A program made the translations under genes and the position numbers. Below are positions 1,894 through 22,688 of a stretch of 34,504 nucleotides of DNA, piece by piece (position 1 is the stretch's first letter; every line of letters begins with the position of its first letter). This stretch comes from Methanobacteriota archaeon (GTDB lineage: Archaea; Thermoplasmatota; E2; DHVEG-1): contig JAPKYE010000079.1 of NCBI GenBank assembly GCA_026394495.1, forward strand, positions 1-34,504, given 5' to 3'. The notes under the pieces were generated by a model, which was not told the origin of the DNA, made no database searches, and saw only the letters and a list, made by a program, of their open reading frames with translations.

Positions 1894-1905
1894 TGAGTGT
1901 CAATC

Positions 1906-3885: not shown

Positions 3886-3974
3886 AAATACTGTGTTTCT
3901 TCTGCAGACGTGTGAGGGCGAGCCAAAAAATATATACCCCAATGGTGTTACAAAGGTCTGGTGAGGCAAAAAAT

Positions 3975-4403
3975 ATGGTAGATGATAAATGTAGTAAATG
4001 TGGTGCTGAAATACCTATGGACTCCAAGTTTTGTTTGAGTTGTGGAGCGAAAGTCGGGAAAGAAATACGATCGGTAAGCGAACCGGTCCATCAAGTGTTT
4101 CAATCTCTGTTCTCAAAAAATCTGATCGTCGCAGCAATCCTGCTCGGTATCCTTTTCATATGGATTGGAGCCCTTATCTTACCGTTTAGCACGGATTTAA
4201 CCAGTATCCGGGCCGCTCAAACCCTGAACTCCCTGGGATTCTTTATAGTCGGGGCATTTCTGATAGGCGGCGGAATCACGAACAACATCCTGGATAAATT
4301 CGTAAGGCTGGGTATGATTGTTATGGGCGTGTACATGATAACGTCGGTTCTTTCGCTCACGTCCCTGATTTCATCTTTCAGTTCTTTGATAAGAACCTAT
4401 TAA
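3975..4403 (+). CDS. Zinc-ribbon membrane protein
   Basis: The protein has 142 residues. The start follows GGTGAGG at 3960-3966 with an 8-base spacer; the longer frame back to 3861 lacks this support and overlaps the previous gene. The N-terminal MVDDKCSKCGAEIPMDSKFC with a following CGAK is a classic four-Cys zinc ribbon (CxxC-x11-CxxC), as in DZANK/zinc-ribbon_2 proteins. Three hydrophobic stretches follow (about residues 44-65, 80-100, 108-135), predicted as membrane helices. An A/T-rich TATA-like stretch near 3926-3936 could be its own promoter. G+C content looks higher than in the genes before and after. The role is unknown; such proteins may link membrane events to cytoplasmic partners. 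Confidence 0.8.
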   Translation: MVDDKCSKCGAEIPMDSKFCLSCGAKVGKEIRSVSEPVHQVFQSLFSKNLIVAAILLGILFIWIGALILPFSTDLTSIRAAQTLNSLGFFIVGAFLIGGGITNNILDKFVRLGMIVMGVYMITSVLSLTSLISSFSSLIRTY

Positions 4404-4498: not shown

Positions 4499-4576
4499 GA
4501 TTAGCAAAAAAGCATGGGTTAAGTTTTTAGATGTATAGGTTTTTAAAATAAAACTGTTGAGAGTTAAGGCTGAAAG
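4499..4576 (+). promoter_or_regulatory. Promoter/leader repeat, copy 3 (orphan, cut off)
   Basis: Third copy of the leader found at 1443 and 1906: GATTAGCA, A-run, CATGGGTTAAGTTTTTAG, ATGTATAG, TATA-like TTTTTAAA, then AACTGTTGAGAGTTAAGG, which still resembles the other leaders. The similarity stops just where the 94-base direct repeat begins at 4577. No Shine-Dalgarno/ATG/signal peptide follows. It looks like the promoter of a lost lipoprotein gene, cut at the island border. Confidence 0.55.
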
Positions 4577-4670
4577 CGATTCGAAGAAATTATTTTTTAC
4601 TTTGTCTCAACAGATAAGATATACTGAAATGTGACGTCATTTACACGTTAAAATCCCAGTGCGGGCGTAA
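4577..4670 (+). repeat. 94-base direct repeat, left copy (island border)
   Basis: It begins CGATTCGAAG and ends CAGTGCGGGCGTAA. It matches 19046-19139 in the same orientation at 89 of 94 positions. The five differences all fall in the first 44 bases; the remaining half is identical. It contains the 8-base palindrome TGACGTCA (4632-4639). One frame reads DSKKLFFTLSQQIRYTEM then stop, so it may be the 3' end of a transposase-like gene plus the terminal sequence of an insertion element; that reading is inference. Confidence 0.85.
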
Positions 4671-4731
4671 TATTATTTAGCATGGTTAATATTAACTTGG
4701 CATATGCAACGTATCATAATAAAAAAAGATT

Positions 4732-6156
4732 CTAATAATCGTAACTACTTGATTTTTGTGATGTAATTATCGTTTTGATTTTTTCGAGTGATACATGTGA
4801 AATAACAATAGGTGAAGGTTTTTCAGAATTCGATTTGATTTCATCCACTTCTTTTACATTGATTTGAACTTGAGGACCAACCATTTTCTCATAAGCCTCT
4901 TTTATTCGGTCGATTATTAACTTTACCGATGGATCAATATCTCTGAGTTCATCATCAATTTCAAGTAAAATATCGATATCATCAATACTTTTTTGTATGA
5001 TTTGAAATTGTTTTACTTTGTAAGTTTTCAATTGACTTAATACAATTGAAATAATTGAAAATGTTCCTGGAGTAAATAATCGACCATCTGGTAGAATAAT
5101 ACTAGAACTGATTCTCCCTTCGACACCGGTTATTAATTTTGGTGAACATATTCCGCATTTGCATTTATTATCTGGAGAAATTCTTACCCAATCATCCATG
5201 CCTGTGTATCTGATTATCGGTGTTCCTTTCCCAAATAATCTTGTTATTACAATATGTCCTCTCTGTCCCGAATCAACAATATCCTTATTATGATCGATAG
5301 TTTCTACATGGAAATAATCTTGATTGATGTGCCACGTTCTTTCTTTGCATTCAAAAGCAATATCGGCATTAGCTTCACAAGATGCATAAATATTAAACAT
5401 TTTACATCCAAAACTATTTTCAACATATGATTGGGTGTATTTATCTAGATAATATCCACCAGATATGAGTATTTTTGGATTTAGGTTCTGTCCAAAACCT
5501 TTCCTTTTCAGGAAAGCCAAATGTTGAAATGTAGCTGGTAGTGATACTATTAAATCAGGATTAAAACTATCTAATTTTTTCATTATATTTAATATTGGAT
5601 TGAATGCCGGTATTGAAAGATGGTTTTTTAGGGGTAAGATTGAACGGGCTTTATTTGTAAATACTTTTTCAATTGCATCTGGTGGTGCATTTGGATGATA
5701 ATTCATAACATACGCAAATTTTGATGTTCTCCAATGTAAATTGAACGTTCTAAATACACGTATAGACGTTCCAATTGAGTCTGCCATGGTTTGAAAATCA
5801 GTATACATGTAAACAGGTTTACCAGTGGAACCACTTGTACTTACGACATATCCTTTATTAAAATTATAATTTTTTGGAACAATTTTATTTGGAAAATGTT
5901 TAACAATATCTTGTTTGGTGATAAAGGGGAGTTTAGTAACATCCTCAATTCTATTGATGTCGCTTGGATGGACACCGGCTTCTTTGTATTTTTCATGGTA
6001 TAACGGGACAGTATAGGCATATTTTACTATCCTTTTTATCGCGTTATCTTTATGTTTCTTCATTCTTTCTGGAGTCATTTTTTTTAATCTTTCTGCATCA
6101 AAAATTAATTTTTTAATGAATGGTACTCCTATAATCGGATTTAGAAATGGATTCAT
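4732..6156 (-). CDS. PaaK/CapK-like adenylate-forming ligase
   Basis: The protein has 474 residues, close to the usual phenylacetate-CoA-ligase/CapK length. The ATP/AMP-binding loop STSGSTGKPV lies at about 107-116. Later motifs fit the ANL superfamily: ISGGYYLD, NIYASCEAN (the YxxxE region), GQRGHIVITRL and GTPIIRYTGMDDW. Cys residues in CKCGIC are extra and might bind metal. Such CapK-type proteins often sit in capsule or exopolysaccharide loci, where they are thought to activate an acyl group as adenylate for transfer to CoA or a sugar. No clear Shine-Dalgarno precedes the ATG; a TATA-like box at 6189-6199 would give a nearly leaderless message. It is the first gene inside the left repeat and is transcribed toward it. 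Substrate unknown. Confidence 0.85.
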   Translation of the reverse strand: MNPFLNPIIGVPFIKKLIFDAERLKKMTPERMKKHKDNAIKRIVKYAYTVPLYHEKYKEAGVHPSDINRIEDVTKLPFITKQDIVKHFPNKIVPKNYNFNKGYVVSTSGSTGKPVYMYTDFQTMADSIGTSIRVFRTFNLHWRTSKFAYVMNYHPNAPPDAIEKVFTNKARSILPLKNHLSIPAFNPILNIMKKLDSFNPDLIVSLPATFQHLAFLKRKGFGQNLNPKILISGGYYLDKYTQSYVENSFGCKMFNIYASCEANADIAFECKERTWHINQDYFHVETIDHNKDIVDSGQRGHIVITRLFGKGTPIIRYTGMDDWVRISPDNKCKCGICSPKLITGVEGRISSSIILPDGRLFTPGTFSIISIVLSQLKTYKVKQFQIIQKSIDDIDILLEIDDELRDIDPSVKLIIDRIKEAYEKMVGPQVQINVKEVDEIKSNSEKPSPIVISHVSLEKIKTIITSQKSSSYDY

Positions 6157-6188
6157 TAGTTAATCAATAAAGATAATGATTGATAATT

Positions 6189-6199
6189 GTATATATCTT
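6189..6199 (-). promoter_or_regulatory. TATA-like box for the CapK-like gene
   Basis: On the minus strand this reads AAGATATATAC, about 33-43 bases before the ATG of the CapK-like gene, leaving a 5' leader of only about ten bases, which agrees with the missing Shine-Dalgarno. The rest of the divergent gap 6157-6401 is A/T-rich; GTTATTTATATCC near 6291-6303 is a possible TATA box for the plus-strand gene at 6402. Confidence 0.4.
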
Positions 6200-6401
6200 T
6201 TGCCCCATAATAAATAATTGATATTTTCATCATTTAAAAACTAAACAAATATCTTATTAATGGTCCATAATGTTTAATGTTAGTTGAAAAGTTATTTATA
6301 TCCTATCAGAAATACTTCTTCATATTGATGATAATTTTCAAATAAATTTTCCAGCTGAAAAATTAAAGTCCTAGTATCAATAAATAAAGGTTGAATTAAA
6401 A

Positions 6402-7646
6402 ATGAAAAAAATTTATATCTATTCTAAAAATGTATGTGAACGAAGAAAGTTAGATGCTCGGCGAATCGCAAATTATTTTACTATAAATGGTAACGAAATT
6501 GTATCTAATCCAAAAAATGCAGATATTATTATATTGAGTACTTGCGGTGCAACTGGTGAATGTACTGATTTATCTTTTAGCGCTTTGAAAAAATTGTCAA
6601 AATATTCAGCAGAAATAATTGTAACTGGTTGTGTACCTGCAACAGATAAAAAGAAGTTCGACGAGGTCTTTTCAGGCAAATCAATTATCGCTGAAGAACT
6701 TGATGAATTTGATAAATCATTTGCGGGTTTTAAAATAAAATTAAAGGATGTTGAAGATACAAATAGATCATGGATTACAGAAGACCAGGATTTAGCTTAT
6801 CTGTTTAGTAAAATGATGTACAAATTTTCATTAACTAAAAAAGTTTATTTTTATTGTGTAAAAAAATTTTTAAGTTATATATTTGGTGATTGTTTTATAA
6901 TACTTGAAAATAGCATGAGATATATCAAAAACGATTATTATTACATAACTACCTCATGGGGGTGTTCACAGAATTGTTCATATTGTGGCACAAAATTTGC
7001 AGTAGGCAAGTTTCACTCTAAACCAATAGATAAATGTGTTGAAGAATTTAAATCGGGGTTGAAAAAAGGATTTACTAAATTTGATATCGAAGGTGAAGAT
7101 ATTGGTGGTTACGGGATAGATATTGGAAAAACTTTCCCAGATCTACTTGATGAACTGACCAAAATAGAAGGAAAATATAATATCACCTTATCGACATTGA
7201 ATCCTATCTGGTTTGTAAAATATAAAGACGAAATTCTTGACATATTATCGCGAGGAAAAATAAAATGTATTATTATTCCAATACAATCGGGGAATTCAAG
7301 GATTCTTACTCTTATGCGTCGTTATTCGAATATCGATAAAATGCGAAAGGCGATCATGCAAGTAAAAAGTTCCTATCCAGATATTGCTATAGGCACTCAT
7401 AGTATCATTGGATTTCCAACAGAAACATTTAACGAATTCCGAGATACATTAGATTTTATTAAAGAAGTGAATTTTAATATGGGAATCATCAATTTAATGT
7501 CATTTAAAAGTGGAGCGGAAGCTGAAAAAATTTCACCCAGAATCTCAATAGAGGAAATTAATAGAAGGAAGAAATATGCAAAAAAATATCTTAGAAAGCT
7601 AGGATATAGGATATATCCAACAAAGAAGGCCTTAACATTTGGATAA
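6402..7646 (+). CDS. Methylthiotransferase-like radical SAM protein without TRAM domain
   Basis: The protein has 414 residues. The N-terminal part resembles the UPF0004 domain of MiaB/RimO/MtaB with its three cluster-binding cysteines: Cys12, Cys48 (LSTCGATGE) and Cys77 (VTGCVPA). The radical SAM motif CSQNCSYC gives Cys188, Cys192 and Cys195. Later PIQSGNSRIL, LMRRYS and IGTHSIIGFPTET fit the MTTase core. The usual C-terminal TRAM domain, about 60 residues, is missing; the protein ends soon after the barrel. An insertion of about 60 residues with hydrophobic character (about 120-178) separates the domains. MTTases insert methylthio groups into tRNA or ribosomal protein; loss of TRAM and the setting among glycan genes suggest another substrate, but a tRNA role is not excluded. 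A weak AAAGG lies about 12 bases before the start. Confidence 0.8.
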   Translation: MKKIYIYSKNVCERRKLDARRIANYFTINGNEIVSNPKNADIIILSTCGATGECTDLSFSALKKLSKYSAEIIVTGCVPATDKKKFDEVFSGKSIIAEELDEFDKSFAGFKIKLKDVEDTNRSWITEDQDLAYLFSKMMYKFSLTKKVYFYCVKKFLSYIFGDCFIILENSMRYIKNDYYYITTSWGCSQNCSYCGTKFAVGKFHSKPIDKCVEEFKSGLKKGFTKFDIEGEDIGGYGIDIGKTFPDLLDELTKIEGKYNITLSTLNPIWFVKYKDEILDILSRGKIKCIIIPIQSGNSRILTLMRRYSNIDKMRKAIMQVKSSYPDIAIGTHSIIGFPTETFNEFRDTLDFIKEVNFNMGIINLMSFKSGAEAEKISPRISIEEINRRKKYAKKYLRKLGYRIYPTKKALTFG

Positions 7647-7676
7647 ATAGATTTGAGTATAAAAAATGATATTAAA

Positions 7677-8510
7677 ATGTTAAATGCACTTAGTATTGAC
7701 CTAGAATTTTGGAATTCTGGAGAACCTTATTCTGGATATCCTCAAAAAATAAAAGAAGATCAAATTGAAGAAGCACTGTATCCTCTTTTGAATTTATTAG
7801 ATAAATATAATACACGTAGTACTTTTTTTATTTTAGGACAAGTTGCAGAAACACATCCATCTCTAATAAAAGAAATATATGATCTTGGTCATGAAATTTC
7901 ATCTCATGGATATTCACATAAAAGATTGCATTTGTTTGAAAGGGAAAAATTTGAGGAAGATATTAAAGAATCTATCAAGATATTATATTCAATAACCCGA
8001 GAAAGACCCATTGGATATAGAGCTCCAAGTTTCTCAATAGATAATTCAACAAAGTGGGCTCTTAAAATACTCAAAAATAATGGATTTAAATACGATTCTA
8101 GTGTATTTCCGATAAAAACGCGGCTTTATGGCGAGCCAAATGTTCCCTTGGGGCCTTATAATCCTTCAATGGAAGATATTACAAAAATTGATCCAACAAA
8201 CGAATTGATAGAATTTCCTTTAAGCGTATATAAATTTTTAAATAGAAATATTCCTATCTCTGGAGGTATTCATTTTCGAATAATCCCTTATCAATTATTG
8301 AGATATGCTATAAGAAAAATCAACCAGAAAAGACCGATTATTATGTATATTCACCCTTGGGAGACATATCCAAATACTCCACAAATTAATTTGCCATATA
8401 AGATGAGATTTGTTTCCTATTATGGAATTGATCATACCTTAAAAAAATTTGAGAAGCTTTTAAAGGAATTCAAATTCACAACAATTAAAGATGTACTTAA
8501 AGTAAAATAG
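7677..8510 (+). CDS. NodB-type polysaccharide deacetylase with DUF3473-like C-terminus
   Basis: From the ATG at 7677 the protein has 277 residues; an upstream TTG at 7653 would add eight, but family members begin close to this ATG. The metal-binding motifs are visible: Asp8 in LSIDLEFW, His77 and His81 in SSHGYSHKRL, and the GYRAPSFS arginine motif. The C-terminal region ISGGIHFRIIPYQLLRYAIR with MYIHPWETYP fits the DUF3473 extension of XrtA-type/exopolysaccharide deacetylases. It should remove N- or O-acetyl groups from a sugar polymer or a lipid-linked amino sugar. No signal peptide is seen, so it probably acts in the cytoplasm on a precursor. It follows the preceding gene by 30 bases and is probably cotranscribed. 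Confidence 0.88.
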   Translation: MLNALSIDLEFWNSGEPYSGYPQKIKEDQIEEALYPLLNLLDKYNTRSTFFILGQVAETHPSLIKEIYDLGHEISSHGYSHKRLHLFEREKFEEDIKESIKILYSITRERPIGYRAPSFSIDNSTKWALKILKNNGFKYDSSVFPIKTRLYGEPNVPLGPYNPSMEDITKIDPTNELIEFPLSVYKFLNRNIPISGGIHFRIIPYQLLRYAIRKINQKRPIIMYIHPWETYPNTPQINLPYKMRFVSYYGIDHTLKKFEKLLKEFKFTTIKDVLKVK

Positions 8511-8585
8511 GTAAATTAATAGGAATCATAATATACTTACTTGGTATTTGTTAAGTTCAGGAGATCCTCAGGAGATCAAAAAAGT

Positions 8586-9872
8586 ATGAAAAACTTATCT
8601 TCCTGCACCATTTTCGAAACGTTAACAGGAGAAGCTAACGACTTGGTCATTTCAGACGTCTTTATAAGTCAACAGAAGAGCTTATTAACTCCTGAAGATC
8701 ATATGGTAGAAATTATTGAGGAGAAGTTTAATAAAATTAATTTTGACAAAGGATATGATTTAGTCGGTATATCCTGTTTTACATGTAATGTTAAAAGAGG
8801 TTATGAAATCGCAGATAAATTTAGATGCCAAGGAATTCCAGTAGTTTTAGGTGGTTATCATCCTTCTGCATTGCCCCTTGAAGCGAAAACCCATGCTGAC
8901 AGTGTTGTTATTGGTGAAGCGGAACTAGTTTGGCCACAATTATTAATAGACTTAGAGAATAAGACCCTTAAACCCTTCTATAAATCTAATAAGTACGTTG
9001 ATCCAAAATTTATCCCTCCTGCAAAACGTATTAATCAAAGAAATCCTATTTTTGCATCAATACAAGCGTCACGTGGATGCCCTAACAGTTGCAAATTCTG
9101 TGCAATGCATAATATCGAAGGACCACAATTTCGTCCAAGATGTATAGACAGTATAATTGATGAAATTCGATCAATTAAATGTAAAAATCTATTTTTTGTT
9201 GATTCTTCATTAACTATAAATCCTCGTTTCTCAAAATCTCTTTTTAAGGAAATGATTGGATTAAATAAAAAATTTGAATGTTTTGGAAATATGAATGTCT
9301 TAACAAAAGATGATGAATTACTAGATCTTGCGAGTAAAGCTGGCTGTATTCGATGGTTGGTCGGCATAGAATCAATTTCTCAAGAGACAATTGACAGTAT
9401 GAAAAAAGGAACAAATAAAGTAAAAGAATATGAGATTGCAATTCAAAAAATAAAAGATCATGGAATGTTAGTAACTGGATTGTTCATGTTTGGCTTTGAT
9501 AACGATACACCGGACATATTTAATAGAACACTTCAGGCGATGAATGAATTGAATTTAGATTCTGCTTCATTTAGTATTGTCACTCCTTACCCTGGCACCC
9601 AACTTTTTAATGAGATGGAGGCAGAAGGAAGAATATTAACAAAAGATTGGGCAAAATATACTGAGGGAAATGTTGTATTTAAACCAAAAAACATGTCTGA
9701 AGAAGAACTGTTACAAGGAATAAAAAAAGCAGCTATGAAATACTACTCATTTTCTTGCTCGCTAAGACGATGTTTAAGGAGTAAAAATCTTAGTTTTAAC
9801 CTTATTTTAAAAAAAGTTAGTAGAAATTTTTTTTATACAAAACTGTTTTATAAAGAATTATTCAATTTGTAA
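8586..9872 (+). CDS. B12-binding-type radical SAM protein
   Basis: The start at 8586 follows GGAGAT with a 9-base spacer and gives 428 residues; the frame is open back to 8541 without better support. Residues 34-130 resemble the cobalamin-binding Rossmann half: LTPEDHMVEIIEE, YDLVGISCFTCN, IPVVLGGYHPSALP, ADSVVIGEAE. The radical SAM motif RGCPNSCKFC gives Cys165, Cys169 and Cys172. The tail with VVFKPKNMSEEELLQGI is typical of this BchE/HpnJ-like family, whose members make methyl, ring or cyclitol modifications. The first 30 residues do not look like the normal N-terminus (no beta strand with a PPLG motif), so the 5' end may be damaged or replaced. It ends with a basic, hydrophobic tail. Confidence 0.82.
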   Translation: MKNLSSCTIFETLTGEANDLVISDVFISQQKSLLTPEDHMVEIIEEKFNKINFDKGYDLVGISCFTCNVKRGYEIADKFRCQGIPVVLGGYHPSALPLEAKTHADSVVIGEAELVWPQLLIDLENKTLKPFYKSNKYVDPKFIPPAKRINQRNPIFASIQASRGCPNSCKFCAMHNIEGPQFRPRCIDSIIDEIRSIKCKNLFFVDSSLTINPRFSKSLFKEMIGLNKKFECFGNMNVLTKDDELLDLASKAGCIRWLVGIESISQETIDSMKKGTNKVKEYEIAIQKIKDHGMLVTGLFMFGFDNDTPDIFNRTLQAMNELNLDSASFSIVTPYPGTQLFNEMEAEGRILTKDWAKYTEGNVVFKPKNMSEEELLQGIKKAAMKYYSFSCSLRRCLRSKNLSFNLILKKVSRNFFYTKLFYKELFNL

Positions 9873-9933
9873 AATTTTATGCAAATAAACTTAGATTTCC
9901 ATGCAAAAATACAATTAATGACATACAATTTAA

Positions 9934-10071
9934 AACTATTTAGAAAATTTTACCAGAAAAGATACGATTAAACAAGGGCTTACAAACGAGATTCTAAAAG
10001 CAGGCTTTAAAGATGCTCAAAAAATTTCTAACTTTGAGGATGCTATGCAAGTTGTTATAGGAGAAAAATGA
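9934..10071 (+). pseudogene. 3' remnant of a methyltransferase-like gene
   Basis: A frame without a start reads NYLENFTRKDTIKQGL, then NEILKAGFKDAQKISNFEDA and MQVVIGEK before TGA. The pattern AGFKDAQ then VVIGEK is typical of the last strands of class I SAM-dependent methyltransferases. A stop precedes it and nothing similar lies upstream, so only the end of the gene survives. The rest of the gap 9873-10130 is A/T-rich with no other gene seen. Confidence 0.45.
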
Positions 10072-10130
10072 AATAAGCATAGAGACATTACAATAAAAGT
10101 TTAAGAATCTTCTAAAAGAGGATCTTATCG

Positions 10131-11306
10131 ATGAAAGTAACAATGATTGCCCATTTACCTCCAATAAAAGCGATCAGTCCGTACTGCTTACATTTAACAA
10201 GGGAATTGGCTAAAAAAGTTGATTTAGAAATTATTGGATTTCAGCGATTACAACCTGAAGGTTTATATGATGGAGGTACAACAGAAAAAGGAACAGAATT
10301 TGAGGGGATAGAGAACGCAGATATTAAAAACATAATTTATTGGTATAACCCTTTGTCTTGGATAAAAGCAGGACTAAAAGCAGATGGTGATATTGTTCAT
10401 ATCCAACATTGGGCGCAATATTCGACTGTGATGTATTGTATTATTTTACCTGTTTTAAAATTGAAAAGAAAAACCATTGTTTTAACAATTCATAATATTA
10501 CTCCACACACCAATAATAAATCGATAATTTTAATTGATAAAATATTGAATACATTCGTATTTCCATTTTCTCATCATTTTATTGTTCATAATCAAAGAAA
10601 TAAGGAGAAATTAATGAAACTTTACCATATTGATGAAAAACGGATATCAATCATTACACATGGGGTTCTAAAACCAGAAAACGTTCGACATATTTCTAAA
10701 ATTAACGCTAGAACTCAATTAAATATTCCAATGGATAAAAAGGTAATCCTATACTTTGGTTATATTTGGAGATATAAAGGATTGGATACCTTACTAGAAT
10801 CCCTAACCCTCATAAAAAAATCGATACAAAATGTTTTATTACTCATAGTTGGAGAACCTGTTAAATTCCAGAATTTTTGGGTAAAATGTGAAAAAATAAT
10901 TAGTGATCATAATCTTCGTGACTATGTGATAACGAAATTGGAATATATTCCCGAATCAGAAGTAGGACTATATTTTTCAGCTTCAGATCTTGTTGTTTTA
11001 CCTTATAGGGAACCATTTGACACACATGGCGGTGTAGGTGCTTTATCATTGAGTTATAAAAAACCTTTAGTTGTTACTGATATTGGTGGCTTACCGGAAT
11101 ATGTTAAAGATGAAAAGGTAATATCATCCCCCAATGATGCCAATGGGTTGGCAGATAATATTATTAAAGTTCTGAAGGATGAAAAATTACTTAAAAAGTT
11201 ATCCAAAGACTCAGAGCAACTTAGTCATGAATTGGCTTGGGATGTTATTGCAGATAAAACCGTTGATTTATACAACAATCTTATTGCCGGAAGGAATAGG
11301 TCCTAA
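10131..11306 (+). CDS. GT4-family glycosyltransferase
   Basis: The protein has 391 residues and the two-Rossmann GT-B layout. The N-terminal half begins MKVTMIAHLPPIKAISPYCL and contains DIVHIQHW and TIHNITPHT. The C-terminal half begins KVILYFGYIWRYKGLDTLLE and includes LIVGEP, LYFSASDLVVLPYREPF and GGVGALSLSYKKPLVVTDIG with GLPE, the donor-nucleotide region of GT4 retaining enzymes. It has no membrane helix, so it should act at the cytoplasmic face on a lipid-linked or soluble acceptor. A GAGG lies about 9 bases ahead of the ATG. Its 3' end overlaps the convergent radical SAM gene by 26 bases. The donor sugar cannot be told from sequence. Confidence 0.88.
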   Translation: MKVTMIAHLPPIKAISPYCLHLTRELAKKVDLEIIGFQRLQPEGLYDGGTTEKGTEFEGIENADIKNIIYWYNPLSWIKAGLKADGDIVHIQHWAQYSTVMYCIILPVLKLKRKTIVLTIHNITPHTNNKSIILIDKILNTFVFPFSHHFIVHNQRNKEKLMKLYHIDEKRISIITHGVLKPENVRHISKINARTQLNIPMDKKVILYFGYIWRYKGLDTLLESLTLIKKSIQNVLLLIVGEPVKFQNFWVKCEKIISDHNLRDYVITKLEYIPESEVGLYFSASDLVVLPYREPFDTHGGVGALSLSYKKPLVVTDIGGLPEYVKDEKVISSPNDANGLADNIIKVLKDEKLLKKLSKDSEQLSHELAWDVIADKTVDLYNNLIAGRNRS

Positions 11307-12276
11307 GAAACTCAACAGTATCTTTTATAATAGTTAAATTTTGTTTGTAAATATTAGAGTCAAATCCTAATACTCTATCCCAATATGATAGTCCAAAATA
11401 ACACTCAAAAGTACAGTGTTCACAGAAATCATATTTTCCTGCATTTCTAAAAAGATCCCCCCATTTTGATGAATTATAGAGAGATAGCAGTTTTCCATTA
11501 ATCTGAACCTTTTTGGTGGTTCTGAAGAAACAAGGAGTTGTTAAACAATTATCAGGGCTAATATCGATAGTGGAGCGACCAGACTTACATTTTGGATGAT
11601 AAATATCGTTGCCGCCTTTGAAATAAAAATCCAAATATGGCAAATTCATTCTCACATAGGGTTTCCAAAAATATTTTTTTATTTTTAGAATATTCTCTCT
11701 GTTTAATGATTGATTTTCAAAATATGAAAAACAAGGATGAACTAAAACAGTTACTTTATTTTTTCTACAGAAATCGAATATTGTTGAAATATGGTCAACA
11801 TTTTCATTGGTTACTGTAAGTGTCAAACAAATGTTTTGGTTGAGTGTTTTAGCAATTTGAATACTTTCAACTACTTTATCGTACCCATCGACTCCTCTGA
11901 TTCGTTCATATTCTTCTCGTGAAGTTGTATCCAAGGAAAAATATATCCAATGTACCAATCCTCGCAGCTCTTCAGCCTGTTCAGGATACAAAATCCCATT
12001 TGTAGATAATTTCGTTATAAATCCCAGTTGTTTTGCATGGGATAAAATTCTTGGTAAATCATGATTTAGAAGTGGTTCTCCACCAGTAAAATCGATTATT
12101 TTAACCCCTATTTTTTTAAGATCATTTAGGTTTTTCTGGGCATCGGAAAATTTCGCATCTGAATAGCCATCGAACGCTGGCATCTTCCAAATATTGCAAA
12201 ATTTGCATCTTGAATTACATTTATATGTTGTCCAATAGAGACAGTAGAACGGTTTCCTTGGAAGAGCTGCAAACAT
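11281..12276 (-). CDS. Radical SAM protein with SPASM/twitch-like C-terminus
   Basis: The protein has 331 residues. The motif YKCNSRCKFCNIW places Cys20, Cys24 and Cys27 for the SAM cluster; FTGGEPLLN and LSTNG fit the SAM-binding barrel. The C-terminal half has several further cysteines (HPKCKSGR, NCLTTPCFF, FCEHCTFECYFG) that could hold an auxiliary [4Fe-4S] cluster as in SPASM or twitch domains. The general plan is also that of HpnH/MoaA-like enzymes. It is the last gene of a minus-strand run (DegT, epimerase, GNAT, this one), with 56 bases between it and the GNAT. Substrate unknown; sugar, lipid or peptide are all possible. Confidence 0.85.
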   Translation of the reverse strand: MFAALPRKPFYCLYWTTYKCNSRCKFCNIWKMPAFDGYSDAKFSDAQKNLNDLKKIGVKIIDFTGGEPLLNHDLPRILSHAKQLGFITKLSTNGILYPEQAEELRGLVHWIYFSLDTTSREEYERIRGVDGYDKVVESIQIAKTLNQNICLTLTVTNENVDHISTIFDFCRKNKVTVLVHPCFSYFENQSLNRENILKIKKYFWKPYVRMNLPYLDFYFKGGNDIYHPKCKSGRSTIDISPDNCLTTPCFFRTTKKVQINGKLLSLYNSSKWGDLFRNAGKYDFCEHCTFECYFGLSYWDRVLGFDSNIYKQNLTIIKDTVEFLRTYSFRQ

Positions 12277-12332
12277 TTTTTTTCCATCTCAACAGATATA
12301 TAAGTTAGGTTTAAATTTACTGGTAGATCGTA

Positions 12333-12797
12333 TTATTCTAAAACCAGGGACATTTTGATCTGGCCTGAATCCTCATCTTTGCCTGCAATCTTAAAACCAG
12401 ACTTCTGGTATATCCTAAAAGCCGCATCATTATTAGGATAGACCTTTAATATGACCTTTTTATATCCTAATTCTTTAGCTTTATTTATTGTCCATTGTGT
12501 CAGCATCTTCCCGTATCCTCTGTGTTCATATTCTGAACGAATGCAACAACCAAAACTTGGGATGGTATATTGAAATAATCTGAGGAACGAATATCCGATG
12601 ATTTTTTTATCTGCGATTAACACAAAATAATGATCTTTTTTAGATGAGCATATATCTACTAACGTTTGTCTGTCAAATGGATGAGGGTGGAAAAAATGCT
12701 TTGCATTATTTGATAATGTATTCAATATTTCGTAGAGTTCATCGATATCTCGATTGGTAATTTCTCTGAAAATCAATGAGTTATTCAATTTTTTCAT
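12333..12797 (-). CDS. GNAT-family N-acetyltransferase
   Basis: The protein has 154 residues, normal for a single GNAT domain. The acetyl-CoA pyrophosphate loop is EHRGYGKML, preceded by the beta-4 strand CCIRSEY, and VYPNNDAAFRIYQKSGFK is the usual motif B region. The ATG overlaps the stop of the epimerase gene by four bases (ATGA), so the two are translationally coupled. Next to an aminotransferase and a sugar epimerase it is a good candidate for acetylating an aminosugar nucleotide, though that is inferred from context. Confidence 0.88.
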   Translation of the reverse strand: MKKLNNSLIFREITNRDIDELYEILNTLSNNAKHFFHPHPFDRQTLVDICSSKKDHYFVLIADKKIIGYSFLRLFQYTIPSFGCCIRSEYEHRGYGKMLTQWTINKAKELGYKKVILKVYPNNDAAFRIYQKSGFKIAGKDEDSGQIKMSLVLE

Positions 12798-13732
12798 TTG
12801 AATACCTTATCATTATAGTACTCTTTTTTATGATCAATGAACATAGAAGCTTGTATTAGTTCTTTTATACCATCATCTAATGAATATTTTGTTTTGAATC
12901 CAAGATCGCGGATTTTCTGAAAAGATACTTTGTAATTTCTTTTATCGGGGTCGGTTCCAAACTGAGCAAATTTAAGATGAAAATCCACGTATTTTTTAAT
13001 TGCAAGAGCGACATCTTTCTTTGTAAGACATAACTCCTCTGATCCAACATTATAAATTTCATGATTCATTTCATCAAAGTGATCTAAGGCAAAAAGAAAG
13101 CTTCTTACTATATCTCTTACATGTACAAATGACCGCCAATAGTCTTTTTCATAAATAATTAACTCCTTGTTTTTTACCGCTTTAATGACAAAATCATTGA
13201 CAAGGAGATCTAATCTTGGTCGTAAAGAAAGACCAAACCCTGTTGAAAATCGGTATATGATAAAATCATCGCACTTTCGTATCTCTCGTTCCGCATCGAT
13301 TTTTGTTTTACTATATTCAGTTGCAGGTTTCAATGGAGAATTTTCAGTGCATACCTCTGTTAAAGGTCCGTAGCAACTTCCGGTTGATGCAAAAACAATA
13401 GGTACTTTACAATATTTTACCAATTTCTTTGTTGCTAAATGATTAATTTCCTTCGCTAACTTTGGTTGAGCTTTACAGGCAGGGTAACCAACAAGAGCCG
13501 CAAGATGAATCACTAAATCAATATTTTTCAGAGCATTTTCAATATCTTTCGTATCTCGTATATCTCCATGGAAAAATTCAAAATTTGAATTTCCAAGATT
13601 AGGGAGAAGACCGTAGTAACCATATGTTAAGTTATCAAGAATCTTTACATCATGTTTTTTTAATAGCTCCGGAATCAAACAACTCCCAATATATCCTGCT
13701 CCCCCAGTAACTAATATATTAATGGTTTTCAC
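12794..13732 (-). CDS. NAD-dependent sugar-nucleotide epimerase/dehydratase (extended SDR)
   Basis: The protein has 312 residues. The N-terminal ILVTGGAGYIGS is the NAD-binding Rossmann motif; GDIRD, VIHLAALVG, FASTGSCYG and the catalytic YSKTK (TyrxxxLys) follow in the usual order of GalE/RmlB-like enzymes. The C-terminal half has WRSFVHVRDIVRSF and YNVGSEE. It should convert a nucleotide sugar (4-epimerase, 4,6-dehydratase or related). The start is a GTG directly abutting an AAGGAG that lies in the end of the aminotransferase gene; the two genes overlap by four bases. That spacing is tight, and the real initiation codon could be slightly downstream. Confidence 0.88.
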   Translation of the reverse strand: MKTINILVTGGAGYIGSCLIPELLKKHDVKILDNLTYGYYGLLPNLGNSNFEFFHGDIRDTKDIENALKNIDLVIHLAALVGYPACKAQPKLAKEINHLATKKLVKYCKVPIVFASTGSCYGPLTEVCTENSPLKPATEYSKTKIDAEREIRKCDDFIIYRFSTGFGLSLRPRLDLLVNDFVIKAVKNKELIIYEKDYWRSFVHVRDIVRSFLFALDHFDEMNHEIYNVGSEELCLTKKDVALAIKKYVDFHLKFAQFGTDPDKRNYKVSFQKIRDLGFKTKYSLDDGIKELIQASMFIDHKKEYYNDKVFK

Positions 13733-14808
13733 TCCTTGAATTTATTAATTTTTTTGATGATGTAATCTTGTTCTGTTCTCGTTAAAGATTGATGGAGTGG
13801 TAAAGAAATAACCCTTTCAGATATTTTTTTTGCCATTGGAAAAACTTCTTTGCCATACTTTCTAAATAAAGGTTGTTCGTTTATCGGTAGGGGATACGTA
13901 ATACGAGTATCAATTCCATTTTCATTGAGATGATGGTTTAAACGATCTCTATTCTTTGTTAATATCAAAAAGAAAAAATTAGAATTTATCGTATTTTCTA
14001 ATTGCCGTGGATATTCAACATTCTTTAAATAATCCCTATAATAATCTACTTTTTTCCTTCTTTTTCTTAACGTCCCTTCAAATCTATTCATTTGTGAATT
14101 ACCCATAGCAGCTAATAAATCAATCATCCGGTAATTGTTTCCAAGAAATTGATGATCGAATTTAGCGACATCGCCCTGATTTCTAATTGTTCGTGCTAGC
14201 ATATTCATTTTTTTGTCATTGGTAAAAATCATTCCACCTTCTACGGTAGTAAGAATTTTTGCAGCATGAAAACTTGTTGTATTTATTAGTCCATGAGAAC
14301 AACATTTTACATTATAATATTCTGATCCAAAAGATTGTGCACCATCAACAACCAGGGGAATATCGTATCGCTTTGCTATTTCGAGTAACTTGTTATAATT
14401 TGAAGCATTTCCGCCAAGATCAATATTCATAATCGCTTTAGTTTTGTCAGTAATCTTTTCTTCAATAAGTGAGGTGTCGATATTTAATGTGTCATCTATA
14501 TCCACAAAAACAGGTGTTCCTTGATTATAAAGAACAGCATTTCCTGTCGCTATATATGTTAAAGCAGGAATTATTACTTCATCTCCATTTTTAATTCCTA
14601 TACATTTTAGTGCAATATCAAGGGCTGCAGTTCCATTATTTACCGCAATGGAATATTTAATACGAAGATAAGAAGAAAGCCTCTCTTCAAATTTTTTAAC
14701 TTCATTACCCATAGATAACCAATTAGATTTTATAACTCGTAGAAGCGCATTCTTGTCTTCTTTTTGAAAATTTGGTATCGCCCATGGAATTTGCACGAAT
14801 TTCACCAT
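13729..14808 (-). CDS. DegT/DnrJ/EryC1/StrS-family aminotransferase
   Basis: The protein has 359 residues, the family's usual length. The PLP lysine is Lys184 in SFHAAKILTTVEGGM, and the aspartate contacting the pyridine nitrogen is Asp155 in LVVDGAQSFG. NNGTAALDIAL and PALTYIATGN near the N-terminus fit the phosphate-binding region. These enzymes transaminate keto-sugar nucleotides, for example to 4- or 3-amino sugars, and the downstream epimerase/dehydratase and GNAT complete a usual amino-sugar trio. No clear Shine-Dalgarno precedes the ATG. It is the first gene of the four-gene minus run. Confidence 0.92.
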   Translation of the reverse strand: MVKFVQIPWAIPNFQKEDKNALLRVIKSNWLSMGNEVKKFEERLSSYLRIKYSIAVNNGTAALDIALKCIGIKNGDEVIIPALTYIATGNAVLYNQGTPVFVDIDDTLNIDTSLIEEKITDKTKAIMNIDLGGNASNYNKLLEIAKRYDIPLVVDGAQSFGSEYYNVKCCSHGLINTTSFHAAKILTTVEGGMIFTNDKKMNMLARTIRNQGDVAKFDHQFLGNNYRMIDLLAAMGNSQMNRFEGTLRKRRKKVDYYRDYLKNVEYPRQLENTINSNFFFLILTKNRDRLNHHLNENGIDTRITYPLPINEQPLFRKYGKEVFPMAKKISERVISLPLHQSLTRTEQDYIIKKINKFKE

Positions 14809-14870
14809 TTTTTTTATTAGAAATAATCAAACTCGATTATTTAATAGTATATTCATTGATAATCATTTAT

Positions 14871-16289
14871 TTATAGGATATTTTTAAGCTGCGATGACAT
14901 CGCTACTTTTAAATTATATTTTAGACGAAGAATATCTTTATTTTTCAATGCTCTAAATACTTGGCCAAATACATATCTTGGATTAAAATAAAATCCTCTA
15001 TATGCTTTTTTTAAGTATTTATCCACATCTTCAATTGGTAAGTTTCCAAGTCCTCGATTTGAATCAACCCGAACAACATATTCATTCTCTGATATTTTCC
15101 CTTTCTTAACTGCTTCATTCCAAAATTCAGAACCCATATCATAATAAAAAGGACGAATAACAGCGACATCCAGAGGTAAAGAACGCATAAACTTCATAGT
15201 ATTTTCAAGATGTTTTTTTGTCTCTGTTGGTCCACCAAAAATAAAAGATGATGATAAAAAGAAGTTCATTTTTCTCCCTAAAGTTATGGCTTTTCTTATT
15301 TGCTCTAAAGTAACATTTTTATTATAATAATCAAGAACATCTTGATTCCCAGATTCGATACCAAAACTAATATAACTTACACCCGCTTTTTTCATTTTTT
15401 CATATAACGTTTTATTGGCTGTATCTACTCTTGCTCCAACTATCATAATATCAAGTTCTATCCCCGCTTTAATAAGAAAATCGAAAATTTTTAAGGATCT
15501 ATTTTTATCTGCAAGAAAATTATCATCAACAATAGCTACCGATCTATATTTTTCATTTATTAGAAGTAATTCTTCTATAACGTTTTCTGCTGATCTCTGA
15601 CGGAAACCATACTCTTGAATCACATTGCTATACCGTGAACAAAAACGACAACGATATGCACAACCTCGACTGGTAAGCATGGAAGTAAATTTTTTCTTTG
15701 CTGTATATCCATATGGAAAATTACCATAGTCGTACTTCTCAACCAAGTGTCGCGCAGGAAATGGCAATGAATCCATATTTTGAATTATCTTGAATGGTTT
15801 TCCAGATTTTATCCCATCGGAGTTACGATAAAAAATACCAGGAATCGCTGAAATTTGTTCTTTTCGTTCAAGAAATTTAATAATTTCTAAAATCACATGT
15901 TCTCCTTCGAGTTCAACAGCAATATCTGCTTTTGGGATATCTTTTAACGATCCTGCTTTAAGAAAAGTGCAATGTGGACCTCCTATAATCAAAGGTATCT
16001 TTGGATCAAATTCCTTAATAAAATTTGCTAACTCTGCTGATTTTTTATAAGTATTTGTATAAACACTCATTCCGACAGCATCAGATATTTTTAAATTTTT
16101 TTCTAAAAGTTCTTTTGTAACTTTCTCTGAGCCGAAATCAATAATTTCTACGCTATGACCATTTTCTTCTAAAACAGCTCCAATATTAAGTAAACCAAGA
16201 GGCGGAAAAATTGAAGTAATATTTGGTGGATGACCTAAAATACCAGGTTGTTCCCATTCTTCAGCGAGAGTTAGTAGAAGAAAATGCAT
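14871..16289 (-). CDS. B12-binding domain radical SAM protein
   Basis: The protein has 472 residues with a complete N-terminal cobalamin-binding domain: IFPPLGLLNIGAVLEENGH, VEIIDFG, AVGMSVYTNT, PLIIGGPHCTF and VELEGEH. The radical SAM motif SRGCAYRCRFCSRY gives Cys210, Cys214 and Cys217. YISFGIESGNQDVLDYY and FIFGGPTETKKH continue the barrel. The C-terminal region is helical and basic. A GGGAGG precedes the ATG with an 11-base spacer. Family members perform radical methylations and ring rearrangements (BchE, HpnJ, calditol synthase, GrsA/B are known relatives). The reaction here is unknown. Confidence 0.88.
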   Translation of the reverse strand: MHFLLLTLAEEWEQPGILGHPPNITSIFPPLGLLNIGAVLEENGHSVEIIDFGSEKVTKELLEKNLKISDAVGMSVYTNTYKKSAELANFIKEFDPKIPLIIGGPHCTFLKAGSLKDIPKADIAVELEGEHVILEIIKFLERKEQISAIPGIFYRNSDGIKSGKPFKIIQNMDSLPFPARHLVEKYDYGNFPYGYTAKKKFTSMLTSRGCAYRCRFCSRYSNVIQEYGFRQRSAENVIEELLLINEKYRSVAIVDDNFLADKNRSLKIFDFLIKAGIELDIMIVGARVDTANKTLYEKMKKAGVSYISFGIESGNQDVLDYYNKNVTLEQIRKAITLGRKMNFFLSSSFIFGGPTETKKHLENTMKFMRSLPLDVAVIRPFYYDMGSEFWNEAVKKGKISENEYVVRVDSNRGLGNLPIEDVDKYLKKAYRGFYFNPRYVFGQVFRALKNKDILRLKYNLKVAMSSQLKNIL

Positions 16290-16358
16290 TGAAGATATAA
16301 CCTCCCATTTATTTATCCTCGTCTATTTCAGACAATAGATGACATAGTTCCTTATTTG

Positions 16359-17126
16359 TTAATCGTCTTCTTTCATTAAATGTACCGGTATTCTATCATA
16401 AGCCCAAACAGGTAATAATTCTCTAGTTCGAATCATTAAAACTTGTGTTAATGGGAATTGAATTATTTTCTTATTTCTTTCAAGTCCTTTAAGTATTATT
16501 TCAGCTGCTCGATGTGGTTTAATTGACCCGGGTCTATGATATTCTCCAATCATCGGAGTTTCTACTGAGCCGGGTTTAATAGTTATGAGGTCTATATTGT
16601 ATTTTTGCTTTGCTTCAACTCTCAAACTCTCGATAAGCCAACTTAAAGCAGCTTTGCTCGATCCATAAGCATCAATACCTGGCGTTCCTCGTTTATCCGG
16701 TAAAGTAGAAATTGGCGCTATGATTCCTGATTTTTGAGCTCTCATATAAGGAAATAAATATTCCATAAAGTATATGTTACCAAAAAAATTTATTTTCATC
16801 GATTTCTCGATTATACTACTATCAAATTCATCAATTTTATTTGGAATTAGGACACCTGCTGCAAGAATCGCTAAATCAATTTTGCCATAAGTATCTATGG
16901 TAAATTGTACTGCTTGTTTTACTTCATTTTTAATTTCAACATTACATTTTCGATAGATACATGTAGATTTTGATTTGTTTATCATTGTTGTAATTTCTTT
17001 TAAAAGATCTTCTCTTCTTGAAAAAAGAGCTAATTTACATTCTTCAAGTGCGAAACGCTCAGCTAACGCCCGTCCTATTCCTCCTGTCGCTCCAGAAATT
17101 ATTACTACTTTATCTTTAAATTTCAT
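16359..17126 (-). CDS. Short-chain dehydrogenase/reductase
   Basis: The protein has 255 residues, the classical SDR length. The cofactor motif is SGATGGIG, followed by LFSRRE (Arg after beta-2 hints at NADPH), ILAAGV in place of NNAG, a Ser in PISTLPD and the catalytic YGSSK (TyrxxxLys). ITIKPGSVETPM is the usual C-terminal lid start. It probably reduces a keto group on a sugar, acyl or lipid intermediate of this locus. GGAG lies about five bases before the ATG. It is divergent from the phosphodiesterase gene, with a 177-base gap that is A/T-rich. Confidence 0.9.
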   Translation of the reverse strand: MKFKDKVVIISGATGGIGRALAERFALEECKLALFSRREDLLKEITTMINKSKSTCIYRKCNVEIKNEVKQAVQFTIDTYGKIDLAILAAGVLIPNKIDEFDSSIIEKSMKINFFGNIYFMEYLFPYMRAQKSGIIAPISTLPDKRGTPGIDAYGSSKAALSWLIESLRVEAKQKYNIDLITIKPGSVETPMIGEYHRPGSIKPHRAAEIILKGLERNKKIIQFPLTQVLMIRTRELLPVWAYDRIPVHLMKEDD

Positions 17127-17303
17127 ATAACTCCATAAAATGAATAATAATCGCGTTAATATGAGTATCCTTCATCAAATATTATTTAAGAGACATTTTT
17201 TAAAATATAGGACCTGATGATATTAAATCTAAGTATTTTATTATGTAATAAGTGAAAAAAAGAGAATCGTTCTTGATTCTTAAAAGTAAAATAGGAATTT
17301 ACT

Positions 17304-18920
17304 ATGAAACAAGTTATCATAATCGGAGTTGATGGTGCCACATCCAACCTGATGGATCCTTGGATGGAATCAGGAAAACTTCCAACTTTTGCACGAATGA
17401 ATAAAAACGGTGCCTATGGAACACTTAAATCGACCATTCCACCTTTTAGTGCACCAGCATGGACAACTATTATTACGGGATGTAATCCTGGGAAACATGG
17501 AATTTACGATTTTTTCCGTACAGATAGTTTTTCTAAAAAACTAATAAATTCTAGAGAACGGAAAACTCCTGCACTATGGAATATACTTACTGAGATGAGA
17601 AAAAATTGCATCATTGTTAATGTTCCTGGGACATATCCACCTGAATCAATAAATGGCATTATGATTACGGGTCTTTTAACTCCTTCATCAAAATCAGATT
17701 TTACTTATCCAAAGAGTCTCAAGAAGGATCTTGTCGAAGGAAAAATCGGGAATTTTGAATTAGAATCATTTACCCAAGACGGAATCCCATTGCAATTAAC
17801 AGCAAAACATGCGCCAGAAAAACTTGTACATCAACTCAATAATACGATGCGATCTCAGGGAAAAGTAACAATAAATCTTATGAAAAAAAATAAGTGGAAT
17901 CTTTCAATGGTTGTATTTCGTGGTATTGATGAGGTTCAACATTATTTATGGAATCGAAGAGATCTCCTTCTTTCCTGTTATCAAACAGTGGATACTATTG
18001 TTGATGAGATGATAAATATTTTTCCAAATGCGACAATTATTATTGTATCGGATCATGGCTTTGATGGTGTGAATAAATATTTGTTTATAAATAATGTTTT
18101 GTATAATGCTGGTTATTTAAAGACAAAATCAGACCTCAATTATAGTTATGATTCTTTTTTCTTGAAGTTTTATCAGATTTTCAACAGATTTTTATTTTAT
18201 ACATTACCATTTCGTAAGATAATTCCAAAATCATTAATTTGGAAATTACTTCTTTTGAGTGATACTACAAGTAATATCGATTTTTCACAAACACAAGCGT
18301 TTCTTCATTCAATTAGTTCGCGAGGAATCAGAATAAATTTAAAAAAGAAATATTCACAAGGAATGGTTGATTCTAATGATTATGAAAAACTATTAAATGA
18401 TCTGATTAGACTTTTCAAAGAAATAATCGATCCTGAAACAAATCAGCCAATTATTAAAGATGTTTATCGATCAGAAGATATTTATGGTCCAAATGCAGTT
18501 AATGATCCTCTGGATCTAATCTTAGATCTCGAAAAGGGTTATGGTATACAGGATTTATTGAAAATATCTGAAAAAACAAATCCGGTCGATAAAACCTTGA
18601 AAAATCAATTACCTTTTCTTTCAAATCCAGGATTCTATGATTGGTCAGGTGATCATTTCTCCGACGGAGTTGTTTTTCTTTATGGGAATGAGTTTAAGCA
18701 CAATTTTTTTATCAATGCTTCAGCTGAAGATATTGTTCCAACGATATTAGCAGATTTAGATCTTCCAATTCCAAATCATATCGATGGCAAAGTAATCAAA
18801 GATGCATTTGTTAAAGGATTAAACATCAAAAAAATCAATCTTAATAGTAACTTTTTAAAGAAAAAGGAATTAACGTTATCGGAAAAAAAGAAAATAGAAT
18901 CTTTAAAAAAATATGGTTAA
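17304..18920 (+). CDS. Alkaline-phosphatase-superfamily phosphodiesterase/transferase
   Basis: The protein has 538 residues. The metal-binding start is IIGVDGAT (Asp10). PPFSAPAWTTIITGCNPGKH (about 46-65) is the nucleophile segment of type I phosphodiesterase/nucleotide pyrophosphatase relatives, the nucleophile probably being the Thr after Trp53. VSDHGFDGV and DWSGDHFSDG supply later metal ligands. There is no signal peptide; archaeal members of this group often occur in glycan and lipid loci, where they may move phosphate-linked head groups. AGGA lies about 8 bases before the ATG. It is the last gene before the right repeat and is transcribed toward it. Confidence 0.85.
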   Translation: MKQVIIIGVDGATSNLMDPWMESGKLPTFARMNKNGAYGTLKSTIPPFSAPAWTTIITGCNPGKHGIYDFFRTDSFSKKLINSRERKTPALWNILTEMRKNCIIVNVPGTYPPESINGIMITGLLTPSSKSDFTYPKSLKKDLVEGKIGNFELESFTQDGIPLQLTAKHAPEKLVHQLNNTMRSQGKVTINLMKKNKWNLSMVVFRGIDEVQHYLWNRRDLLLSCYQTVDTIVDEMINIFPNATIIIVSDHGFDGVNKYLFINNVLYNAGYLKTKSDLNYSYDSFFLKFYQIFNRFLFYTLPFRKIIPKSLIWKLLLLSDTTSNIDFSQTQAFLHSISSRGIRINLKKKYSQGMVDSNDYEKLLNDLIRLFKEIIDPETNQPIIKDVYRSEDIYGPNAVNDPLDLILDLEKGYGIQDLLKISEKTNPVDKTLKNQLPFLSNPGFYDWSGDHFSDGVVFLYGNEFKHNFFINASAEDIVPTILADLDLPIPNHIDGKVIKDAFVKGLNIKKINLNSNFLKKKELTLSEKKKIESLKKYG

Positions 18921-18989
18921 ATCATATGTAATGATGCCTAGGAAAGATATCACTTGTATCACTATTCTAGTTATTTTTAACTGGATAAA

Positions 18990-19006
18990 TCGAACTTAAA
19001 GTTCGA
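18990..19006. repeat. 17-base hyphenated palindrome beside the right repeat
   Basis: TCGAACTT-A-AAGTTCGA is perfectly self-complementary around one base. A second small inverted pair, AGCG/CGCT, follows near 19011-19023. Both lie between the phosphodiesterase stop and the right 94-base repeat. They could be a terminator stem, a regulator site or a recombination site. Otherwise the 305-base gap 18921-19225 holds the repeat and no gene. Confidence 0.6.
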
Positions 19007-19045
19007 ATACAGCGAACAGCGCTATAGGAATTATTATTATAAACA

Positions 19046-19139
19046 CGATTCGAAGAAATCACTTTTTACGTTATCTCAACAGATAAGACATACTGAAATG
19101 TGACGTCATTTACACGTTAAAATCCCAGTGCGGGCGTAA
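19046..19139 (+). repeat. 94-base direct repeat, right copy (island border)
   Basis: Direct copy of 4577-4670, 89 of 94 positions identical. It starts CGATTCGAAG and ends GTGCGGGCGTAA, followed by unrelated sequence. One frame reads DSKKSLFTLSQQIRHTEM then stop. Together with the left copy it brackets a block of about 14.4 kb. Confidence 0.85.
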
Positions 19140-19225
19140 CATTTTTTTTCAAATTAATTCGTATGTACTAGACAGACACGAAGAATAATTTGTGTTAGGG
19201 TGTTGGAGTCATTTTTGAGACATAG

Positions 19226-20601: not shown

Positions 20602-20763
20602 TTCTGATATGTTCCTTTTTTCAAAATTTAGGAACCGTTGTTTATTTAAAAATATATCTGGAAAAACAATGATTCTGATACTTTTTTAAAAAATGGTATG
20701 TATTTCGTTATGGAAAATTGTATTAAGTCAGATATGATTTCTTTATTCGTGGGTGTAAAAGTA

Positions 20764-20892
20764 ATGGATAAACAAGAAAATAAACTGAAATGTAAGATTT
20801 GTGGTGCGCCGTATCTTTATCCAAACTATAAACACACTGAAAAAGGCGTTATTGCTGTGTGTCCAAGCTGCGGAAGAGAGAACTTTAATTGA
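20764..20892 (+). CDS. 42-residue zinc-ribbon protein
   Basis: MDKQENKLKCKICGAPYLYP starts the protein and CPSCGRENFN ends it, giving two CxxC pairs about 20 residues apart, a compact zinc ribbon. The frame is open back to 20698, but the ATG at 20764 fits the domain start; GGGTG lies about ten bases before it. Probably binds one zinc, and nucleic acid or protein. No partner is named by sequence. Confidence 0.65.
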   Translation: MDKQENKLKCKICGAPYLYPNYKHTEKGVIAVCPSCGRENFN

Positions 20893-21101
20893 CCCTGTTA
20901 TCAGAAACCTGTCTTTTTAATGAATTTACAGAGAAAAATGGTATAAAAAAGCATTCAATGGATAACTATTTAATGGAGAAGCAATTATAGTATCATTAAA
21001 AGAAATAGAAATAAGAGTTTCATTTTTTCATATTTTTTTGAAATCATGGAATTTTTGTTTTTTTCCTTTCGTAGATACATAAATGAAGGGTTGAATATCA
21101 A

Positions 21102-21290: not shown

Positions 21291-21362
21291 GGAGAATCTG
21301 CAGGAATTTTTTATTTCTATTACATATTTTTAGACAACAATAGTCTGAGGAGGTGAACAGCA

Positions 21363-21554: not shown

Positions 21555-21590
21555 GTATATTCTTGTTATAGTTTTTTTTGTTTCTCGTCG

Positions 21591-21609
21591 TTTTTTTTTT
21601 TTTTTTTTT
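21591..21609 (+). terminator. T19 run after the cold-shock gene
   Basis: An uninterrupted run of 19 T on the plus strand, after a shorter T8 run at 21572-21579. It lies between the convergent cold-shock and ABC permease genes, three bases beyond the permease stop. Archaeal RNA polymerase stops on such runs, so it probably ends the cspA message. It gives no T-run for the minus-strand operon. Confidence 0.6.
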
Positions 21610-21612
21610 GAG

Positions 21613-22686: not shown

Positions 22687-22688
22687 AA

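Follow-up and report, generated by a model that had tools for sequence, protein, structure and literature searches.

Cassettes that end in direct repeats of a transfer RNA (tRNA) sequence are known from bacteria as additive flexible genomic islands (PMC7771536, PMC10872708). In archaeal elements integrated into tRNA genes, the T-stem-loop, the anticodon loop and the 3' end are known target regions, and both tandem and integrase-less elements have been documented (PMC8371274). Here we analysed a stretch of 34,504 nucleotides (the window) from an archaeon of the Thermoplasmatota, in which an A/T-rich block of biosynthetic genes (the island) lies between two direct repeats. We consider it probable, at roughly 85%, that the island is one 14,469-bp unit (4648-4667 to 19117-19136) of a tandem array inserted site-specifically at the 3' end of a tRNA-Arg(GCG) gene, in the T-loop.

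Structure of the repeats

The two repeats have the same orientation and match at 89 of 94 bases (95%), a count of the preliminary description that was reproduced on recounting. They extend to a pair of 102 nt (4577-4678 and 19046-19147; 93% identity, spacing 14,469), which is the longest direct repeat of the window and far above chance. Judged by its sequence, each repeat is a conserved element end of about 70 bp fused to about 20 bp of the tRNA-Arg(GCG) 3' end, cut in the T-loop. Copies aligned across relatives consisted of TTCGAA, about 20 variable bases, CAACAGATATAAAACAT, AAATGTGACGTCATTTA, NNCG and then TTCGAATCCCGATGCGGGCG, the T-loop-to-acceptor tail of tRNA-Arg(GCG). The fragment at the left border was recognised by comparison with the intact tRNA tail TTCGAATCCCGGTGCGGGCG on another contig of the same genome, C101. 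The repeats are attachment (att)-type junctions arising from site-specific insertion at a tRNA gene. Since they are insertion scars with a piece of an arginine tRNA, the block would be one swappable package in a row beside that tRNA.

The preliminary description had taken the repeats both for borders of an exchangeable block and for possible insertion-element ends; the first part stood and the second did not, as the conserved ends carry the tRNA-Arg(GCG) 3' fragment instead. A composite transposon bounded by ends or remnants of insertion sequences, or by miniature inverted-repeat transposable elements, is very unlikely. Two near-identical direct copies around a cargo block would fit it, as would the dispersed copies in some relatives. 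However, Pfam revealed no transposase within the unit or next to it, and no terminal inverted repeats were seen in the module. The frame once read as a transposase-like tail contains an in-frame stop within both copies (TLSQQIR.TEM*RHLHVKIPVRA*). Moreover, the conserved 3' limit coincides with the 3' end of a tRNA, and it is downstream of this tRNA, on the same strand, that copies are found.

Two further identities of the repeat were rejected. An Rfam search of the window at gathering thresholds was empty and ARAGORN found no tRNA within it, which ruled out an RNA gene. A viral origin of the module was also discarded, the core pattern having no match in IMG/VR.

The array in the same genome

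The window contig (C10) belongs to a Thermoplasmatota metagenome-assembled genome (MAG) of 2.22 Mb in 141 contigs (G000). Besides the two repeat copies in the window, this genome has only one more, on C101, which lies 7.25 kb downstream of an intact tRNA-Arg(GCG) with the two on the same strand. The intact tRNA is followed by TAATATTATTTATCATGGTTAATATTAAC, and the 29 bases 3' of it recur almost unchanged after the C101 repeat and the first window copy (two of three repeats), and therefore mark the left ends of units. The second window copy is followed by different sequence and then by housekeeping genes (pyruvate kinase, NucS, phosphofructokinase), so it forms the outer border of the array.

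An intact tRNA at one end and a displaced 3' fragment on the same strand at the other were observed for the C101 unit and in G035, G033, G037 and G044. The window unit has tRNA fragments at both borders, as expected within a tandem array whose tRNA would be that on C101. Several tandem cassettes, each ending in the tRNA 3' repeat, were found on G033:C85 (four junctions in 8 kb), on G035:C35 and in G000 (three junctions on two contigs). When G000 was searched for TCAACAGATATRAAAYCAT, allowing 3 mismatches, the matches were mostly noise and revealed no new arrays.

Such tandem, strand-consistent cassettes with no local integrase resemble an integron-type cassette array with attC-like sites (cluster of attC sites lacking integrases, CALIN), and integrons are present in archaeal genomes (PMC9668308). 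Nevertheless, hairpin folding of the site was no better than that of shuffled sequences (z -0.7 to +1.3). The integron core motif is GTTRRRY, whereas the core here is a tRNA T-loop and 3' end, and we regard this alternative as scarcely credible.

The C101 unit adjoining the tRNA (L035:1315-8463) encodes one surface protein of 2,382 amino acids with C25 peptidase, beta-helix and PKD domains.

tRNA-Arg(GCG) loci in related genomes

Downstream sequence was usable at 27 of the 29 tRNA-Arg(GCG) loci that we compared in the family. Intact tRNA genes stood upstream of repeat copies on the same strand on C101 and in G035, G033 and G037. Profile copies at these loci lay only downstream, on the strand of the tRNA, in eight genomes (G000, G035, G033, G037, G012, G002, G019 and G001). 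Downstream at the 29 loci, in 281 kb, copies of the 17-nt tRNA tail (up to three mismatches) numbered 13 on the same strand versus 1 on the opposite strand. The genes upstream of the tRNA were conserved across genera (51-94% identity, four genomes), but the downstream genes were not. Within genus g13, the distance from the tRNA to the same M14 peptidase gene was 0.42 kb in G029, about 2.6 kb in G043, about 3.5 kb in G044, 6.4 kb in G012 and 11.0 kb in G035. A repeat abuts the conserved flank in G035 and G038, 0.1-0.2 kb ahead of the peptidase gene; the flank homology of G044 resumes at a copy of the tRNA tail, at +3270. The block had been suggested to be exchangeable, and this was borne out by repeat copies bordering other cassettes in relatives and by near-empty versions of the locus such as that of G029.

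Cargo was also found to be common to different genera. A unit of G033 (9708-11973 of L028) and its counterpart in G011 (L027) were 93.9% identical over 2,268 bp. This unit carries a B12 radical-SAM gene and ends in the repeat; the right-hand homology stops just past the tRNA fragment, and the left neighbours differ. Of 45 genomes, 19 had the window phosphodiesterase (17304-18920; best other match 56%) and 32 the radical-SAM enzyme at 14871-16289 (best 60%). In relatives, these two cargo genes were patchy in occurrence and lay on different contigs; the island is thus no fixed syntenic block. Synteny of the island in all relatives, raised earlier as an argument against exchange, was therefore not seen. 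Dispersed copies, the other part of that argument, do occur in some relatives, and hence some copies are not borders at the tRNA-Arg(GCG) locus.

The profile search found a copy (E <= 1e-6) in 21 genomes of 11 genera of the family, and the 94-mer had no match in the 54 searched genomes outside it. All 16 core-pattern stretches in GTDB species genomes were titled Thermoplasmata, Thermoplasmatota or Euryarchaeota. Copies that were dispersed or in short tandems numbered dozens on G026:C1 (1.09-1.92 Mb) and in G033 and G006, and many of them were T-loop-ended. A further att-like motif in these three genomes, TTTTTACYRGTAAA-N-GTTCAAATCTCG, often has TTGTCTGATGGATGTGAGGATGAT behind it.

A second target, tRNA-Ser(GCT)

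A sister module was present in G035, G038, G042 and G012. In it, TGTTAACA or a similar palindrome replaces TGACGTCA. Its tail, TCCGAATCTCCCTCCCCGC, is a tRNA-Ser 3' end, with the anticodon GCT according to our own reading of the sequence. The parallel array at tRNA-Ser(GCT) has a core palindrome of its own. One copy in G038 lies 221 bp downstream of tRNA-Ser(GCT), and in G035 an integrase was found about 1 kb downstream of this tRNA. Stretches of the parallel array were located on G038:C102 (L234), G035:C119 (L165: 3270, 8207, 11046) and G035:C81 (L232).

Integrases and possible mechanism

Integrases were searched for with Pfam PF00589 in 12 genomes (among the matches listed) and with a home-made integrase hidden Markov model on all fetched loci; neither search showed one at tRNA-Arg(GCG). 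In G011 a repeat copy is immediately followed by an integrase-like gene, and in G009 about 1.3 kb separate a copy from such a gene. G000 itself has 12 PF00589 matches among those listed. In this genome, tyrosine integrases adjoin tRNA-Arg(TCG), Phe, Glu, Pro, Val and Thr (contigs C109, C5, C117, C21, C120 and C116), and the displaced tails of tRNA-Glu and tRNA-Arg(TCG) lie 4.5 and 6.6 kb away. This genome is therefore rich in tRNA-linked elements, including autonomous-looking examples. Behind a repeat copy in G009 lies a block (C56, 7667-18000; L033) with an integrase (9030-9581, minus strand) and ribbon-helix-helix-like proteins. This block is possibly plasmid- or virus-like, and could be an autonomous partner.

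Several observations weigh against a tandem array at tRNA-Arg(GCG). The searches yielded no integrase in the window, on C101 or beside any of the 27 usable loci. C101 and C10 are separate contigs without overlap, so that we infer their adjacency; both would belong to one tRNA, with C10 downstream of C101. Between the right flank of C10 and that of relatives from another genus, only an MFS gene is common, and its orientation is opposite. Among the genomes compared, neither a circular form nor an empty site in the same species was seen, and the near-empty locus of G029 keeps about 350 bp without homology. Lastly, the copies in genus g7 (G026, G006, G033) are numerous, partly tandem and partly dispersed, which is not fully explained; in several of them the acceptor part of the tRNA is missing, and many stop at the T-loop.

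The lack of an integrase lowers the autonomy of the units but not their membership of the class, because integrase-less members have been documented (PMC8371274). It does mean that one has to postulate either an enzyme acting in trans or the loss of an integrase with subsequent homologous exchange. An unlikely alternative is that the units move solely by homologous recombination between their common ends, with DNA from relatives, the tRNA fragments being relics of old integrations. The absence of integrases at the 27 loci would suit this, 94 bp at 95% identity is usable as homology, and bacterial replacement islands are reported to swap by double crossover (PMC7771536). Nonetheless, the junctions fall at the T-loop and 3' end with unrelated cargo on either side, the unit common to two genera has different left junctions, and integrases adjoin several other tRNAs of G000.

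Site-specific insertion at tRNA-Arg(GCG) thus rests on features visible in the DNA itself, namely the tRNA fragment, the common ends, the tandem order and strand, the variable interval between conserved neighbours and the two-genus unit. The best reading of these is T-loop insertion by a tyrosine recombinase, and mobilisation in trans is likely at tRNA-Arg(GCG). Elements would enter the 3' end of this gene, in the T-loop, by site-specific recombination. Every insertion would rebuild the tRNA and leave the displaced 3' fragment at the distal end, here fused to the conserved element end; both window repeats would be distal junctions of this kind. Successive insertions would stack beside the tRNA, making surface-protein and envelope-glycan cargo exchangeable. 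In short, gene packages would be added in succession, most of them lacking an integration enzyme.

The target palindromes were TGACGTCA at tRNA-Arg(GCG) and TGTTAACA at tRNA-Ser(GCT), and others were seen. We only tentatively propose a family-wide archaeal system of cassette capture, with unrelated cassettes bearing common ends, integrases acting in trans, several tRNA T-loops as targets and a target-specific palindrome setting the choice of tRNA. If true, it would be like an integron built on tRNA genes.

Composition of the island and its flanks

The island (4671-19139) has a G+C content of 30.8%, against 37.5% on the left and 39.7% on the right, in keeping with the A/T-richness first reported; the low value also fits an inserted unit. 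The border genes point outward, as described, and the genes form one functional set (ligase, deacetylase, glycosyltransferase, epimerase, DegT aminotransferase, short-chain dehydrogenase, radical-SAM enzymes, phosphodiesterase; Table 1). Of the four radical-SAM enzymes, two have B12 domains, one is MiaB-like and one MoaA-like. The island is predicted to encode a pathway of the envelope-glycan type. No transposase, integrase or viral gene is encoded between the repeats. PADLOC matched only generic radical-SAM and ABC proteins, and the viperin-like score of 11281-12276 was weaker than its scores for other radical-SAM families; a defence function is therefore not claimed.

Table 1. Features of the window
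Feature	Position	Strand	Remarks
Preceding unit (partial)	3-4403	+	Surface proteins and zinc-ribbon protein; ends at left repeat
Left repeat	4577-4670	+	Right-end module of preceding unit fused to tRNA-Arg(GCG) 3' fragment
TTCGAA of left-repeat module	4580-4585	+	
CAACAGATAA of left-repeat module	4608-4617	+	
Palindrome TGACGTCA of left-repeat module	4632-4639	+	
tRNA-Arg(GCG) 3'-end fragment, TTAAAATCCCAGTGCGGGCG	4648-4667	+	T-loop to acceptor end; left attachment junction of island
Left end of island unit, TAATATTATTTAGCATGGTTAATATTAAC	4668-4696	+	Near-identical sequence after intact tRNA-Arg and C101 repeat
Adenylate-forming ligase, PaaK/CapK-like	4732-6156	-	Matches below curated cut-offs
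MiaB-like radical SAM protein	6402-7646	+	UPF0004 + Radical_SAM
Polysaccharide deacetylase	7653-8510	+	XrtA-system type, DUF3473
B12-binding radical SAM enzyme	8541-9872	+	
GT4-type glycosyltransferase	10131-11306	+	
Radical SAM protein	11281-12276	-	PTO1314/MoaA-like
GNAT acetyltransferase	12333-12797	-	
NAD-dependent sugar epimerase/dehydratase	12794-13732	-	
DegT/LegC-type sugar aminotransferase	13729-14808	-	
B12-binding radical SAM enzyme	14871-16289	-	
Short-chain dehydrogenase	16359-17126	-	
Type I phosphodiesterase / AlkP-superfamily protein	17304-18920	+	
Right repeat	19046-19139	+	Right-end module of island (TTCGAA, CAACAGATAA, TGACGTCA at 19101-19108) and tRNA fragment
tRNA-Arg(GCG) 3' fragment of right repeat	19117-19136	+	Right junction
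Chromosomal flank outside array	19630-34262		GNAT, ABC transporter, pyruvate kinase, NucS, ferredoxin, aldehyde ferredoxin oxidoreductase, MFS, phosphofructokinase, ARMT1-like

The surface proteins of the preceding unit include a cell-wall-hydrolase-like protein and a PKD protein, with membrane-anchored C-termini. Within their genes, the C-terminal anchor segments (PGF-CTERM-like) are duplicated (1353-1433 and 3796-3876). The leader segments are repeated at 1452-1564, 1916-2026 and 4499-4553, and the third of these copies leads into the left repeat and not into a gene. The same leader stands ahead of repeat copies in G035 and G042.

Comparison with known systems

The arrays suggest how surface proteins and envelope-glycan pathways are swapped in uncultured Thermoplasmatota, and the signature of the junctions locates unit borders in MAGs. 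With ends, target and candidate integrases from one genome in hand, the movement of integrase-less tRNA islands becomes testable. Our searches of an open-access library yielded no publication on such arrays.

The tRNA-integrated archaeal elements of tyrosine recombinases also restore the tRNA 3' end on one side and displace it on the other, integrate in tandem and in some cases have no integrase gene (PMC8371274). Here, however, an integrase was found at 0 of 27 usable loci, and the cargo is cellular, not plasmid or viral. Integrons and CALINs likewise line up cassettes in tandem that share end sites and lack a local integrase (PMC9668308), but the site here is a tRNA T-loop junction without an attC hairpin. 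Tycheposons are cargo-bearing, tRNA-linked units as well; they carry a tyrosine recombinase (PMC10872708), whereas none was found at tRNA-Arg(GCG) here. The additive flexible genomic islands of Ca. Actinomarinales (PMC7771536) and Ca. Methylopumilus (PMC10872708) are alike in that tRNA genes are targets of small cassettes and each insert ends in a directly repeated tRNA 3' part; envelope-related cargo (Actinomarinales) and cassette transfer between genera are also described there. Those islands are bacterial, whereas the present arrays are archaeal and have a common right end of about 70 bp, a common left end and a palindrome that differs between tRNA-Arg(GCG) and tRNA-Ser(GCT), modules of which the sections consulted make no mention. 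What looks new is thus that such arrays occur in archaea, that units with unrelated cargo have end modules in common, and that the palindrome is specific to the tRNA.

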